The notes beneath the pieces were generated by a model, which saw only the letters and a program-made list of their open reading frames with translations, was not told the origin of the DNA and ran no database searches. This document shows, piece by piece, positions 26,820-63,849 of a DNA stretch of 64,000 nt; within the stretch, counting starts at the first letter, position 1; every line of letters starts with the position of its first letter. A program made the position numbers and the translations under genes. The DNA comes from Longimicrobiales bacterium (GTDB lineage: Bacteria > Gemmatimonadota > Gemmatimonadetes > Longimicrobiales > Gaopeijiaceae): contig OX638356.1 of NCBI GenBank assembly GCA_951813395.1, positions 2,368,501 through 2,432,500 of the forward strand. Direction: 5' to 3'.

Positions 26820-27021
26820 GCCCGCGCCCGGCCCGCCCAGAAAGCGCCCAGGCCGGCCATTCGGGTTTTCGTCCCATACACGCATGGCCGTGGCCCGCCT
26901 CGTGGTGCCGCGACCCCGAATGGGTACAACCCCGGCCTCCCGTCACCTCCGTCGTCGCCGGCAAGCGCGGCCATCGTGCATTGTGTCCGCCGGTGGCCGC
27001 AGAGCGCGATCCGCCCGGGAG

Positions 27022-27105
27022 TGCCGAGGGAGGGACTCGAACCCTCACGCCCGCAAGGGCAAAGGTTTTTGAGACCTTCGCGTCTACCGGTTCCGCCACC
27101 TCGGC
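27022..27105 (-). tRNA. tRNA-Leu (anticodon CAA)
   Basis: A class II tRNA of 84 nt read on the minus strand. The acceptor arms GCCGAGG (27105-27099) and CCTCGGC (27029-27023) pair fully, with discriminator A at 27022. The anticodon arm is AAGGT-CTCAAAA-ACCTT, so the anticodon is CAA, reading UUG. The long variable arm (TGCCCTTGCGGGCGTG) and the T arm GAGGG-TTCGAGT-CCCTC identify tRNA-Leu. The 3' CCA is not encoded. Several protein-like frames crossing this locus are artefacts of the tRNA. Confidence 0.95.
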
Positions 27106-39649: not shown

Positions 39650-41109
39650 TGGACAAGTCCACCCTCATCACCGTCGTCATCTTCGCGTACCTCGCGGTGA
39701 CGCTCGGGGTCGGAATCGTCGCCGGCCGACGGGCATCCCGTAGCGTCCAGGGCTTTGTGGCGGGCGACCGGGACTTCGGTCTCCTGGTCATGTATTTCAT
39801 CACCGGCGCCACCGTGTTCTCGGCCTTCGCCTTTCTGGGAGGACCGGGGTGGGCCTACTCCCGTGGCGCAGCCGCCTTCTACATCCTGACCTACGGGGTG
39901 CTGGGAATGGCCCCGTGGTACGCAATGGGCCCCAGGGCCGCCGCGCTGGGACGCCGCTTCGGGTTCGTCACCCAGGCCCAGCTCCTCGTGGGCCGCTTTC
40001 CGTCGCGCACCCTGTCGGCGCTCATGGCCCTGCTCACCCTGGCGGCCTTCGTTCCGTATGTCACCATCCAGATGCGCGGCGCCGGCATCGTGATCGAGGC
40101 GGTGACCGACGGCGCGGTCCCGCTCGCGGCAGGCGCAGCGCTGGCCTACGGGATTGTCCTCGTCTATGTGCTCACCAGCGGTGTTTCCGCGGTAGGGTGG
40201 ACGAACACGTTCCAGGGCGTCTTCATGGTTGGCATCGCGTGGGCGCTGGGGATCTATCTCCCGAACCGACTATACGGCGGTGTCGGTCCCATGTTCCAAC
40301 AGATCCTGGCCGATCGCCCCGAACTGCTGTCCCTGCCCGGGTTGGACGGCGGCGGCGAGCCGTGGAGCTGGGGAGCGTACTCTACCGCGATCCTGGCGAG
40401 TGCGATCGGGCTGACCATGTGGCCGCACCTGTTCATGAAGGCCTTCACGGCCCGCAGCGATGCGACGATTCGGCGAACCGTGATCCTCTTCCCCACGTTT
40501 CAGCTGTTCCTCATACCTGTCTTCCTGATCGGGTTCGCGGGCGTCATGTTCCCGGAATCCCCGGAGCAGTCCGACTTCATCCTTCCCTTCCTGATCCTGC
40601 GTTCCGATCTCCCCGCGCTGGTGGTCGGCCTGTTCTGCGCGGGAGCGCTGTCCGCCTCCATGTCCACCGGCGACGCCCTCCTTCACGGCGCGGCGTCGGT
40701 TGCCGTCCAGGACGGCGTGCAGCCCTTCACAAAACTCACGGACCGGGCTCAGAGGCTGCTGATGAGAGTGCTGGTCGTGGCCGTCGGGGCTGTGGCCTAT
40801 CTGTTCGCGCTGGTGGAGAGGGTTTCCCTGGTGGACCTCCTGCTCGCTTCCTACGGGATCATCGCCCAGTTCATGCCCTCGCTGCTGTCCGCCATGTACT
40901 GGAAAAGAGCCAACACCACCGGTGTCATCTGGGGCCTGGTGGCCGGTTCGGCGGTGTCCGTGTTCTTCTTCCGGTTCCCGGAACTCAAGCCGTTCGGGAT
41001 GCACGAGGGCATCCTGGGCCTGGTGGTCCACGTCCCCGTCCTGCTGATCGTCAGCCTGCTCGGGAAGGCACAGGATCCGGGACATGTCGACCGGTACGTG
41101 AATGTCTAG
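39649..41109 (+). CDS. Sodium:solute symporter family transporter
   Basis: A 486-residue SSS-family protein with about 13 membrane helices: FVAGDRDFGLLVMYFITGAT and FSAFAFLGGPGWAYSRGAAA at the N-terminus, YGVLGMAPWYAMGPR, then FCAGALSASMSTGDALLHGA (helix 8 sodium-site region) and a C-terminal LVVHVPVLLIVSLLG. Organic acids, amino acids and sugars are all possible substrates. Coupled to the DUF3311 gene before it and overlapping the chorismate mutase gene after it by eight bases. Confidence 0.93.
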   Translation: MDKSTLITVVIFAYLAVTLGVGIVAGRRASRSVQGFVAGDRDFGLLVMYFITGATVFSAFAFLGGPGWAYSRGAAAFYILTYGVLGMAPWYAMGPRAAALGRRFGFVTQAQLLVGRFPSRTLSALMALLTLAAFVPYVTIQMRGAGIVIEAVTDGAVPLAAGAALAYGIVLVYVLTSGVSAVGWTNTFQGVFMVGIAWALGIYLPNRLYGGVGPMFQQILADRPELLSLPGLDGGGEPWSWGAYSTAILASAIGLTMWPHLFMKAFTARSDATIRRTVILFPTFQLFLIPVFLIGFAGVMFPESPEQSDFILPFLILRSDLPALVVGLFCAGALSASMSTGDALLHGAASVAVQDGVQPFTKLTDRAQRLLMRVLVVAVGAVAYLFALVERVSLVDLLLASYGIIAQFMPSLLSAMYWKRANTTGVIWGLVAGSAVSVFFFRFPELKPFGMHEGILGLVVHVPVLLIVSLLGKAQDPGHVDRYVNV

Positions 41110-41446
41110 CGAGGACGCGCGTTCGGGGCACCGCGTGTCTGGTGACACCTCTCCCGGGGACGCGGGAGACGAGATGGCGTGGTTGCGCGATGCCGTACTC
41201 CAGTGCGATCGACAGTTGATCGAGATCCTTGCCCGGCGCCGTGATCTGGTGATCCGGATCGGCGACCTGAAGAAGCGCAGGGGACTGCCCGTCACCGACC
41301 CGCAACGGGAGGCGACGGTGGTGCGGAAGGCCGCCGTGCTGGCAAGGGATTCGGGATTGGACGAGGAACTGGTGCGCGATCTGATCTGGAAGGTGATCGC
41401 ATCGGCGCGAACACGGCAGTTCATCCTGGACGAACCAACCGAATAG
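41102..41446 (+). CDS. Chorismate mutase, AroQ type
   Basis: A 114-residue single-domain chorismate mutase (chorismate to prephenate). The all-helical AroQ fold is visible: WLRDAVLQCDRQLIEILARR, RDLVIRIGDLKKRRGLPVTD, then REATVVRKAAVLA and VRDLIWKVIASARTRQ. The conserved Arg, Lys and Glu residues of the active site are in place. The N-terminal 25 residues are polar and probably disordered. The start overlaps the symporter's 3' end, so it is the last gene of that operon, followed at once by a strong terminator. Confidence 0.9.
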   Translation: MSSEDARSGHRVSGDTSPGDAGDEMAWLRDAVLQCDRQLIEILARRRDLVIRIGDLKKRRGLPVTDPQREATVVRKAAVLARDSGLDEELVRDLIWKVIASARTRQFILDEPTE

Positions 41447-41448
41447 AG

Positions 41449-41495
41449 GAAGCCCCCGGCGGGCAGCACACTACCCGCTCGGGGGCTTCGTTTCG
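41449..41495 (+). terminator. Rho-independent, probably bidirectional terminator
   Basis: Inverted repeat GAAGCCCCCG (41449-41458) with CGGGGGCTTC (41480-41489), extended by GCGGG/CCCGC after one bulged base, with a short loop, then TTTCG. It lies three bases after the chorismate mutase stop. Read on the minus strand it also closes the candidate RNA in this entry's neighbourhood, ending with CCTC in place of a T-run. Confidence 0.85.
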
Positions 41496-41816
41496 CTGGC
41501 GAGTCCAGAGAGTTCCGTTTCGGCGCCGTCATGTGCGACGACCGGTTCTCCGTCTCTTCACCCTTCCGGCATTTCAGCCGTCCGGGCCGTCCCCCGTTCC
41601 CAGGGACTCCGGCTGCTTCCAGCGACCCCGCAGCCGTCGCAATCTCCGCCGAATCAGAGACCGCGCCCGCCTCGAACCCCGTTTCCGGCGCTCTCGGCGC
41701 TTCGGACCTCGTCTGGCTCCATCTGCCGGGAGTTTCCCCCCTTCGACGGCCTCTTCGAGACCCTTCCCGGTGCTTCGGCTCCGTTCCTTGCGGCCCGTCT
41801 CCTCTGCCTCGGGGAA
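41449..41816 (-). ncRNA. Candidate structured noncoding RNA of about 370 nt
   Basis: No supportable gene lies between the chorismate mutase stop and rpmA, yet the minus strand is full of hairpins. Examples are GGCTGC/GCAGCC (41611-41616 with 41630-41635), GTCCC/GGGAC (41589-41593 with 41603-41607), CCG-GAAA-CGG (41679-41688), CTGG/CCAG (41496-41508), CGTC/GACG (41527-41540) and GGUCUC-GAA-GAGGCC (41748-41762). The last has a G-U pair that would be a mismatch on the plus strand. A seven-base long-range helix CGGGCCG/CGGCCCG joins 41791-41797 with 41583-41589. Loops and linkers on the minus strand are purine-rich (GAAA, GGAA, GAA), as in GNRA-looped RNAs. It ends in the 41449-41495 terminator. 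It matches none of RNase P, tmRNA, SRP or 6S RNA by their conserved motifs. Confidence 0.5.
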
Positions 41817-41822
41817 ACCACG

Positions 41823-41848
41823 TTAATACATGAATCGGAAAAGCGCAA
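41823..41848 (-). promoter_or_regulatory. Candidate promoter before the structured RNA
   Basis: An AT-rich island with TTGCGC (41848-41843) and TATTAA (41828-41823) on the minus strand; the 14-base spacer is short, so only the -10 may be real. Transcription would begin about 41816. The same island contains AAAAGC-GCAA-GCTTTT followed by T residues on the plus strand, which could alternatively be a small plus-strand terminator. Confidence 0.35.
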
Positions 41849-41906
41849 GCTTTTTTCTTTGTCCAGAGGGCCGGATGCCCTGCCCGCCGCAGACGCCCGG
41901 GGTCCT

Positions 41907-42164
41907 CTAGCGGGCTTCGTCGTAGACCGAAACGACCCTGCGCCGACGGAGGTTCTCGAACTTCACGACCCCGTCCGCCTTGGCGAACAGGGTGTCGTCC
42001 CTCCCTCTTCCCACGTTGTTTCCCGGGTGGAAACGCGTCCCCCGCTGGCGGACCAGGATGTTCCCGGCCAACACCCGCTCACCCGCGTAACGCTTTACCC
42101 CCAAACGTTTTGGGTTGCTGTCGCGTCCATTCCGCGACGACCCGACGCCTTTCTTGTGAGCCAT
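41907..42164 (-). CDS. rpmA: 50S ribosomal protein L27
   Basis: An 85-residue L27: [20 protein letters not shown], then [17 protein letters not shown] and [20 protein letters not shown]. The short N-terminal tail, without the cleavable extension of Firmicutes, reaches the peptidyl-transferase centre. It lies nine bases after rplU, in the widespread order rng-rplU-rpmA. Confidence 0.98.
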
Positions 42165-60906: not shown

Positions 60907-63849
60907 ATGCTCGCCGAAACAGCCCGAAACAACGAGTTCGCTGTGCTGCGGGAGCATCGGCCGGAGGCCGCCGCCTCGGGCCTGGCCGCATTGCGGAATC
61001 GGGCCGTCCGCGACGATCGAGGCAGATTGCTGGAAGCCCTCGAAAACGAGGCGGGCCGTTCCTTCTTTTCCCGGCTTTTCGGCAACAGTCCCTACCTGAC
61101 CCGCCTGCTGCTCCGGGACACGGAATTCGCCGAGGCACTCACTCAGCGAAGCTCCAGAGATCTCGCCGACGGAATCCTCGGGGAGCTCTCGGTAGCCGAC
61201 CCGACGATGAACCGCGACCTGCTGATGCGGCTTCTCAGGCGACAGCGGGGCCGGATCGCGACCCTGGTCGCCGCGTGCGATTGCTACGGAGTCTGGGACG
61301 TCATGCAATGCGCCGCGACGCTGTCGGAGACGGCCGACCGGGCCGTCCATCTCGCAACGGAGCACCTGCTCCTCGACCGCGTCCGGCGTGGGGAACTCGC
61401 GCACCCGGAGGGACCGCCGACCGAGCTCCGGTGGGGATACTTCCTGCTGGCCGCCGGCCGGCACGGTGCGAGGGAGCCGGGGTACACCGAGGACCTGTCC
61501 CTGATCGCGCTGTACGACCCGGATGTCGTGGAATACACGGGGGCCAGGTCTCCGGAGGACTGCTTCGCTCGCGTCACCCGTGACATGGCCCGCATTCTCC
61601 AGGCCCGTACGCGGGACGGATACGCCTTCAGGACCGACCTTCGCCTGCGGCCGGACGCGCCGGCCACGCCACTCGCGATCACGCGGCAGTTCGCCCTGGA
61701 ATACTATCGGCGGTCGGGACGCACCTGGGAGCGCGGGACCCTGATCAACGCGCGGCCGGTAGCCGGCGACGTCACCGCCGGCAACAGCTTTCTGGCCGAG
61801 CTCCGACCCTTCATCTGGGAGGGAGGCCTCGATTTCGACTCCGTCGAGGATATCCACTCGATAAGCCGGCAGATCCACCTGTTCCGGCGCCGCGGTGTGC
61901 CCCGAGCCACGGGACTCGACCTGGCGCTCAGCGCCGGTGGTATCCGCGAGATCGAGTTCTTCGTCCTGATGCACCAGCTGGCCTACGGCGGGAGAAGCCG
62001 TCAACTGAGGGGGTCGAGTGTGCTGCCGATGCTCGACACGATCGAACGGGAGCACTTCATCCTCCCCCGGGAAGCGGCCGACCTGCGCGATGCGTACCGG
62101 ACGCTGCGGCGAATCGAGCACCGTGTCCAGATGGTGAACGACCAGCCGACCCGCGCGCTGCCCGCGTCGAGAAGCGGTCTCGACAACGTGGCCTGCCTGG
62201 CAGGATTCGAGTCTGGGGACGAGCTGACCATGGTCGCGCAACGAGCGATGGAGCGCGTCCACCAGCTTTTCCGGACCCGCTTCACGGCACCCGAGAAGAA
62301 GCGGGACCTCGCGGAGCTGATCCTCGACGGCCCGGTCGGCGGCTCCGAGTCGGAACCGTTGTTGAAAAAGGAGGGATTCCGGAAGCCCGGGGACGCCGTG
62401 GAGATCTTCAAGGGCTGGGCCGAAGGAGGGCACCCGTCCACCTCGTCCACGCGCGCGCGCGCTGCGGTCAGAGCGGTGCTGCCGGAACTGGTTGCCGCTC
62501 TGGGGCGCACGCCGGAACCCGACCGGACGCTGGCCCGAGTCGACCGCTTCTTCCATGCCCTGCCGGCCGACATCTCGTTTTTTCCAATGGTCAAGGCAAA
62601 CACCTGGCTGCTCAATCTGGTAGCGGTGGTGATGGGCAGCGCACCACGGCTGGCGGAATCGCTTCGTCTCAACCCGCGTATCCTCGAGGCCGTCCTGGAT
62701 CCCGCCTTCTTTCTCCCGCTGCCCGGCAAGGAAGCGTTGGCCGGGGCGCTTGCAGAGAGACTGGATGGGGTGGACGACTTTCGAGAGCGCGTCGCCGTAT
62801 TGGAGACGTGGACCCGCGAACACCGGTTCCAGGTCGGGATCCAGACGCTCCAGAACCTGGTCACGGCCGAAGACGCGCTGCGATGCCATTCCGATTTGGC
62901 GGACATCGCGACGGCCACGATTCTGCAGATGGCGATTGCGGAGACCGAGAAACGCTTCGGAGCAGTCGCCGCAGGCCGCTGTGCGGTTCTCGCCCTGGGT
63001 GACCTGGGCGCCAGCGAACTCACGCGGGATTCGGAACTCGACCTCGTACTGGTCGCGGACTACCCGTCGTCCGGCTACGTCGGCGATGCCGTCGACGCAC
63101 GCGGTCATGTCGACTGGGCCCGATTCTACGACCGGGCGGCCAACCGCCTCTTCTCCACCCTGGAACGCCACGCCGAGCGCGGTTCGCTCTACCGGATCCG
63201 GGAGCGAAGCCGCGGCGACGTCCCCGGCGCATCGCCGATGATCACGCTCTCCGGGCTCAAGGCGCGACTCTCCGGCACCACGAGTACGCGTGACCTGATG
63301 GCGCTCGTGGGGGCACGCGTGATCTGTGGAGACGAACAGGTTCGGGAGGCCGTAGAGCAGAGCATCGGTGGTGTCTTCTCCCGGCGCGCGGACCCCGCGC
63401 GGCTCGCCGCGGACGCCTCCGAGATACGCAGGATGCATGCGAAGGAGTCTCCGGACGATCCATTCGGCCTTCTTCGCGCCGCCGGTGGACTGCTGGACCT
63501 GCGGTTGCTTGCCCAGTATCTTGTCGTGCGGCATGTTCACCAACTTCCAGGAACCATCCCCGGAGAGACCCTCAACTGTTTCGAAACCCTGGCCGCCGCC
63601 GACGTGATCAGTGCGGACGAGTTGCGGGCGCTGTCAGGTGCCACGCGCATGCAACGCGCGATCGGAGACATGTTGAGGCTGGCTTCCGAAGGAGGCATCA
63701 CGATTCATGACGCCCCAGGCGTGCTGCGCGAGAAGCTGGCGGTCGCGCTCCAGTATGACAGCCCCGAGGCCATGGAAGAGGGCTATGGTAGTGCGCGCGA
63801 GCGGGTTCTCGGTATCTTTCAGAATCGTGTTGAATTGAAGTCCGGATGA
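60907..63849 (+). CDS. GlnE-like protein (glutamine synthetase adenylyltransferase family) with degenerate active sites
   Basis: A 980-residue protein with the two-domain layout and length of GlnE, which adenylylates and deadenylylates glutamine synthetase. Family segments are clear: DGYAFRTDLRLRPDA, SGRTWERGTLINARPVAGD and GGIREIEFFVLMHQLAYGG. Yet both nucleotidyltransferase motifs are eroded. In the N-terminal domain the expected G.GKLGG..LN..SDIDL reads GRHGAREPGYTEDLSL (second Asp is Ser198). In the C-terminal domain SDLDL is SELDL (709-713) and the third metal site VDARLRP reads IRERSRG (764-770). Catalysis may be weak or lost. ATG 60907 has a poor ribosome site. It is followed by the RsbW-like gene. 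Confidence 0.85.
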   Translation: MLAETARNNEFAVLREHRPEAAASGLAALRNRAVRDDRGRLLEALENEAGRSFFSRLFGNSPYLTRLLLRDTEFAEALTQRSSRDLADGILGELSVADPTMNRDLLMRLLRRQRGRIATLVAACDCYGVWDVMQCAATLSETADRAVHLATEHLLLDRVRRGELAHPEGPPTELRWGYFLLAAGRHGAREPGYTEDLSLIALYDPDVVEYTGARSPEDCFARVTRDMARILQARTRDGYAFRTDLRLRPDAPATPLAITRQFALEYYRRSGRTWERGTLINARPVAGDVTAGNSFLAELRPFIWEGGLDFDSVEDIHSISRQIHLFRRRGVPRATGLDLALSAGGIREIEFFVLMHQLAYGGRSRQLRGSSVLPMLDTIEREHFILPREAADLRDAYRTLRRIEHRVQMVNDQPTRALPASRSGLDNVACLAGFESGDELTMVAQRAMERVHQLFRTRFTAPEKKRDLAELILDGPVGGSESEPLLKKEGFRKPGDAVEIFKGWAEGGHPSTSSTRARAAVRAVLPELVAALGRTPEPDRTLARVDRFFHALPADISFFPMVKANTWLLNLVAVVMGSAPRLAESLRLNPRILEAVLDPAFFLPLPGKEALAGALAERLDGVDDFRERVAVLETWTREHRFQVGIQTLQNLVTAEDALRCHSDLADIATATILQMAIAETEKRFGAVAAGRCAVLALGDLGASELTRDSELDLVLVADYPSSGYVGDAVDARGHVDWARFYDRAANRLFSTLERHAERGSLYRIRERSRGDVPGASPMITLSGLKARLSGTTSTRDLMALVGARVICGDEQVREAVEQSIGGVFSRRADPARLAADASEIRRMHAKESPDDPFGLLRAAGGLLDLRLLAQYLVVRHVHQLPGTIPGETLNCFETLAAADVISADELRALSGATRMQRAIGDMLRLASEGGITIHDAPGVLREKLAVALQYDSPEAMEEGYGSARERVLGIFQNRVELKSG

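Follow-up and report, generated by a model that had tools for sequence, protein, structure and literature searches.

What does the gene-free gap between rpmA and the chorismate mutase gene encode in this member of the Longimicrobiales? The window analyzed is a stretch of DNA of 64,000 nucleotides, and the gap lies in it exactly where the original prediction had placed it, flanked by rpmA (Pfam Ribosomal_L27, 41907-42164, minus strand) and by the chorismate mutase gene (CM_2, 41102-41446, plus strand). That prediction, made from the sequence alone, was of an undescribed and perhaps lineage-specific structured RNA on the minus strand. This has held up well: relatives carry the RNA, its pairs covary strongly, no protein family match was found, and in the genomes tested the matches are confined to Gemmatimonadota.

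Open frames are uninformative for coding here because of the high GC content. The ORFs across the region match no Pfam family, and indels of 1, 2 and 4 nt are common in the genus alignment. Together these observations are evidence against protein coding, which was rejected. A DNA search found the segment in 21 of the 23 genomes of the genus, once in each apart from short chance matches, as 20 full-length copies and one fragment at the end of a contig. Among the 20 full-length copies, pairwise identity is 34.3% just upstream of the block and 35.4% just beyond the terminator, compared to 62.7% in the A-rich promoter-like island, 66.0% in the 5' part, 83.2% in the 3' core and 95.6% in the terminator hairpin. 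These sharp edges, at a promoter-like motif and at a terminator, are the pattern expected of a separate RNA gene, and put the predicted start near 41816 and the end near 41447. In the suggested folding check, shuffled sequence folded far less well than the minus strand with its terminator (z -4.8). The effect is moderate when the terminator is omitted (z -2.5), and folding of the plus strand is weaker (z -1.9). It is concluded from these sequence comparisons that the minus strand carries an independently placed non-coding RNA gene, single-copy here, with its own promoter-like motif and terminator hairpin. Its predicted features are as follows.

41818-41860, minus strand: promoter-like island, consisting of an A-rich run, TTGCGC (41848-41843), 14 nt and TATTAA (41828-41823)
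41448-41816, minus strand: whole RNA gene, about 370 nt, from conservation boundaries and covariance-model matches, both ends predicted
41701-41816, minus strand: 5' domain, less conserved (66%) in the genus alignment
41797-41782 and 41741-41728, minus strand: GNRA hairpins of the 5' domain, with loops GCAA and GAAA respectively, from the loop tally
41668-41699, minus strand: helix H1 (CGCC/GGCG) with an inner CCG-GAAA-CGG GNRA hairpin
41638-41665, minus strand: helix H2, 9 bp, UUCGG in the loop; 9/9 pairs covary (57 members)
41610-41636, minus strand: helix H3, 7 bp, closing the most conserved loop, GGGGUCGCUGGAA
41619-41625, minus strand: pseudoknot strand 1, UCGCUGG, in the H3 loop
41589-41607, minus strand: helix H4, GNRA-type loop (GGAA), alignment-sensitive
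41559-41587, minus strand: helix H5, outer 3 bp plus inner hairpin (41580-41567)
41525-41542, minus strand: helix H7, 6 bp, loop GCACAU (41536-41531); 94% paired, all pairs covary (57 members)
41493-41499, minus strand: pseudoknot strand 2, CCAGCGA, in the 3' tail
41449-41489, minus strand: terminator hairpin, loop GUGUGC (41471-41466); 15/15 pairs covary (57 members)

RNAalifold alone gave a partly wrong nesting, and H2 and H4 were therefore set by hand and then tested. In an alignment of 21 sequences (A5), the 65 proposed pairs are 90.6% paired, and 34 of them have changes on both sides, against a mean of 14.6 after shuffling. When the partner is shifted by 1-3 columns, the two-sided changes drop to 11-17. 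In a second alignment of 57 members (A6), 50 of the 51 modelled pairs have compensatory changes and 91.0% of cells are paired, against 68.8% in shuffled data; these helix counts lean towards the model structure because A6 was fitted to the model. An R-scape-like tree-based null, written for this analysis, gave 15 significant column pairs among 23,220, of which 12 fall exactly in the proposed helices and 2 no more than two columns away.

The GGCTGC/GCAGCC stem proposed originally is the core of H3. It extends to 7 bp (41636-41610) and is 100% paired in 20 species of the genus; over the 57 members, 98% of cells are paired and 6 of the 7 pairs covary. In the same 57 members, H5 is paired in 98.8% of cells in the outer helix and 88.7% in the inner one, with every pair covarying, and H4 is paired in 74% of cells, with compensatory changes in 6 of 6 modelled pairs. 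Two further helices of the original prediction fared poorly. The long-range helix (41583-41589 with 41791-41797) breaks down in many species, with 73% pairing over the genus, and the stem with a G-U pair (41748-41762) reaches 70% there. The purine-rich loops remarked on at the outset are mostly GNRA tetraloops with variable N and R positions: within the genus, nearly all loop variation in hairpins 5a, 5b, H1 and H5 stays inside the GNRA consensus. The H2 loop (41656-41647) contains UUCGG in the window and UUCGA in several relatives. The UUCGA form resembles a tRNA T-loop, and could be a docking module.

Two tertiary contacts are predicted, neither of which is part of any covariance model. The first is a pseudoknot between the H3 loop and the 3' tail. 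In other members loop and tail occur as matched variants (CACUGG/CCAGUG, CGCCGG/CCGGCG, CGUUGG/CCAACG), and pairing of the variant loops is 6.05 with their own tail, versus 4.65 with the consensus tail. The second is a kissing contact, in which the H7 loop is complementary to the terminator loop: GCACAU/GUGUGC in the window, and GCAUCU/AGAUGC, ACACGC/GCGUGU, CAAGU/ACUUG and UUACGG/CCGUAA elsewhere. At least five Watson-Crick pairs are present in 32 of 52 distinct loop pairs, while 2000 random re-pairings gave a mean of 10.4 and a maximum of 18 such loop pairs. Several members have a UUCG- or CUUG-like terminator loop together with an H7 loop that is a GNRA tetraloop or is replaced, a pattern that fits gain and loss of the contact as a unit. 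No single pair of either contact is significant in the tree-based test on the full alignment, mainly because the tail and the loops vary little and align poorly. As modelled from these comparisons, the 3' half is made up of hairpins H2, H3, H4, H5 and H7 and the terminator, tied together by the pseudoknot and by the H7-terminator loop pairing.

The H7-terminator contact may form within one molecule or between two, and both fit the data. The covariation of the loops is consequently also consistent with an RNA-only homo-oligomer, in which the H7 loop would pair with the terminator loop of another molecule, and GNRA loops would dock between chains. GNRA-type loops occur on five hairpins in the genus. 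Kissing loops are known to hold large RNAs together, also between molecules, and OLE, ROOL and GOLLD homo-oligomerise by means of kissing loops and A-minor contacts (PMC12286853). We regard a homo-oligomer as rather unlikely here, in that the two loops could well meet inside one chain, several members have other loops in place of the kissing pair, and no GNRA receptors were identified.

The AT-rich upstream island, which had been described as promoter-like, contains a motif conserved in the genus, TTGCG[CG]-N14-[AG]TTA[AC], of which TTGCG and [AG]TTA[AC] are kept in all 20 full-length sequences. A sigma-70 scan found no promoter, and the island is not sigma-70-like. In eight members outside the genus (L185-L190, L230, L248), sigma-54-type sites (TGGCACG-N4-TTGCA, with 10-12 of 12 consensus matches) sit 45-83 nt upstream of the RNA core; the window's own genus is without such a site. 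This difference between distant members and the window's genus, with its different conserved motif, has the appearance of promoter switching. At the other end, a strong terminator had been proposed. The hairpin is indeed very strong, and 96% identical in the genus. The U-run that goes with it, however, is weak in this species (CUUCCUCUAUUCG), and only relatives have a good one.

A stand-alone gene with a terminator, and with sigma-54-type sites in eight members, would suit a base-pairing regulatory sRNA that acts on mRNAs and is induced by sigma-54 in part of the family; one genome also has copies with diverged loops. The RNA shares an intrinsic terminator and, in part of the family, sigma-54-type promoters with sigma-54-dependent sRNAs of the CrcZ and Qrr types. 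Those sRNAs work via exposed single-stranded motifs, whereas the RNA described here is folded nearly throughout. It is structured and constrained over almost its whole length, unlike typical sRNAs, and its most conserved loop is tied up in the pseudoknot. With the sigma-54 site missing in the window's genus as well, a base-pairing sRNA is considered unlikely. A CsrA-sequestering sRNA (RsmY/CsrB-like) was rejected, the genome itself having no CsrA.

Three covariance models were used to find homologues: R1, covering the 3' half; R2, which adds the terminator; and R3, built on diverse members. Few candidates were scored per genome, and all genome counts are therefore lower bounds. The models were calibrated only briefly, which makes E-values rough and leaves the bit scores (often 60-220) unaffected. 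R1 gave strong matches in further genera of this family. With R2 the RNA is present in at least 74 of 154 genomes and at least 36 of 61 genera of the order, and with R3 in at least 125 of 394 genomes and at least 58 of 143 genera of the class. In 200 genomes drawn from the phylum, R3 found it in at least 59, all in the same class among the matches listed. A specificity check on 38 genomes from many phyla gave 3 matches, all to Gemmatimonadota records. Some genomes have several copies: there are four in one (G049), and several in the named species Gemmatirosa kalamazoonensis, whose genome is complete and where two copies (G252) are on plasmid NZ_CP007130.1. Many Gemmatimonadota yielded no copy, two species of the window's genus (G008 and G010) among them. 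This is partly a matter of search sensitivity, and suggests that the RNA is not universally essential.

The neighbourhood of the RNA was compared between these loci. In the window's genus it comes after rpmA. Many other genera of the family have it between lipB and rnhA, the latter convergent, and carA and a gene for a 2-oxoacid dehydrogenase E2 are close by. In other families its neighbours are unrelated to either set, and mostly to each other. The orientation of the neighbours varies, and the 3' neighbour is often convergent. A fixed downstream gene on the same strand, as would characterize a riboswitch or leader, is not present across the loci. Since a cis element would keep its target gene, action in trans is the natural reading of such changing neighbours, and the RNA probably acts in trans. 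In the window itself, the RNA follows rpmA on the same strand, and the terminator hairpin directly adjoins the stop codon of the convergent chorismate mutase gene (41444-41489), such that one hairpin may end both transcripts. Seen in isolation, this arrangement would suit a cis element, namely a 3' UTR or attenuator of the rpmA operon, or a terminator for chorismate mutase. Such a role is highly improbable, given the conserved promoter-like motif that separates rpmA from the RNA and the unrelated, variously oriented neighbours in other genera.

Is this a known RNA? The original prediction had seen no sign of RNase P, tmRNA, SRP or 6S RNA, and no Rfam match lies in the region. At curated thresholds no Rfam family matches the RNA, either in the window or in 20 distant loci, and permissive thresholds give only unrelated chance matches. 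Among the candidates rejected was a match to sodF sRNA (27.6 bits, against a cut-off of 46), which reflects the GC-rich terminator. The only Rfam or ARAGORN match in the window is tRNA-Leu (CAA) at 27021-27105. RNase P RNA and tmRNA resemble the RNA in length and in having pseudoknots, but both genes are elsewhere in the genome: RNase P RNA (RF00010) at G000:C1:3290029-3290410 and tmRNA (RF00023) at G000:C1:2510622-2510979. A divergent form of either was rejected on this ground. SRP models have no match in the region at E up to 10. 6S RNA (RF00013) also has no match there, and none was detected in this genome. This last result, together with the long-term synteny and wide spread of the RNA, could point to a highly diverged housekeeping RNA, such as 6S or SRP RNA, that Rfam misses. 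6S RNA is trans-acting and widespread, as the RNA here probably is, but it is a rod of about 190 nt, and neither the multi-hairpin architecture with two tertiary contacts nor the Rfam score of our RNA fits it. A diverged housekeeping RNA is thus judged very unlikely, with a permissive cmscan finding no 6S or SRP match in the region. The compact fold, the pseudoknot and the highly conserved unpaired nucleotides could also suggest a self-cleaving or other catalytic RNA. It is unlike any ribozyme family in Rfam, cleavage products gave no sign of themselves, and we think catalysis extremely improbable.

The closest comparison is with OLE RNA, another stand-alone large bacterial RNA with an intricate conserved fold and a poorly known function. 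OLE RNA is about 600 nt and comes from Gram-positive extremophiles, while the RNA here is about 370 nt and comes from Gemmatimonadota. OLE RNA is reported to assemble into a ribonucleoprotein and to dimerise with a kissing loop (PMC9723947, PMC12286853). ROOL and GOLLD are also large and have covarying loop-loop pairs; both are larger than the RNA here, and GOLLD is found in phages and prophages, in contrast to the chromosomal location seen here (with the Gemmatirosa plasmid in addition). The Rfam models for OLE, ROOL and GOLLD do not match the RNA, and no OLE-associated gene was recognised beside the RNA loci scanned. Searches of open-access papers turned up no description of it. As judged by its conservation and covariation, it is an undescribed family of Gemmatimonadota. 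It adds a new family to a known kind of RNA, that of the stand-alone ornate bacterial RNAs, and can be filed under no existing family.

What might such an RNA do? The reading we prefer, and hold to be somewhat more likely than not, is of a trans-acting non-coding RNA whose compact 3' half, including the terminator, would be a protein-binding scaffold. The family and its fold are well supported; the scaffold function is what we infer. Acting in trans, the compact scaffold would bind one or more proteins, and would serve as a regulator or as the core of a ribonucleoprotein, much like OLE RNA. The fold would be closed once the terminator hairpin is complete, such that only full-length and properly terminated molecules would be active. 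The conserved working surface of the RNA would be made up of the GAGGUCGCUGG loop and the loop of H2. Protein binding is suggested by analogy with OLE RNA (PMC9723947). No gene accompanies the RNA at every locus, and no protein partner was found. More tentatively, the RNA could possibly be a new kind of machine in which the terminator is a tertiary element that closes the fold, or that joins two copies via loop-loop pairing, correct termination then licensing the active RNA or the homo-oligomer. If the terminator loop does serve as a folding partner, RNA maturation would be linked to the termination of transcription.

Few large, strongly structured bacterial RNAs have genes to themselves, and among these, RNase P RNA, tmRNA, 6S RNA and OLE RNA proved to be central machines. 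The RNA described here occurs across an entire class of Gemmatimonadota. Little molecular biology has been done on this widespread phylum, which thus appears to employ a sizeable RNA as machine or regulator. The alignment, the covariance model and the two predicted tertiary contacts make it directly testable.

Several minor observations concern the limits of the family. Some weak model matches (L191, L192 and L161-L163), and a second R1 match in the window (62845-63017, 18 bits), were treated as chance or unproven. Viral contigs gave 102 matches to an exact pattern, which sees only part of the RNA family; 80 of these loci were checked, and the best model score was 22 bits, with none convincing. 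In G008, chorismate mutase directly follows rpmA, without the RNA. In G010, which has a genome of 2.8 Mb, both the RNA and chorismate mutase are absent beside rpmA, and about 150 bases of repeat-like sequence occupy their place (L032:1334-1500). Finally, the Gemmatimonadaceae members L284, L285, L294 and L296 have an enlarged H7 and different terminator loops, for example UAGCGAUA, and are perhaps a second subtype of the RNA.
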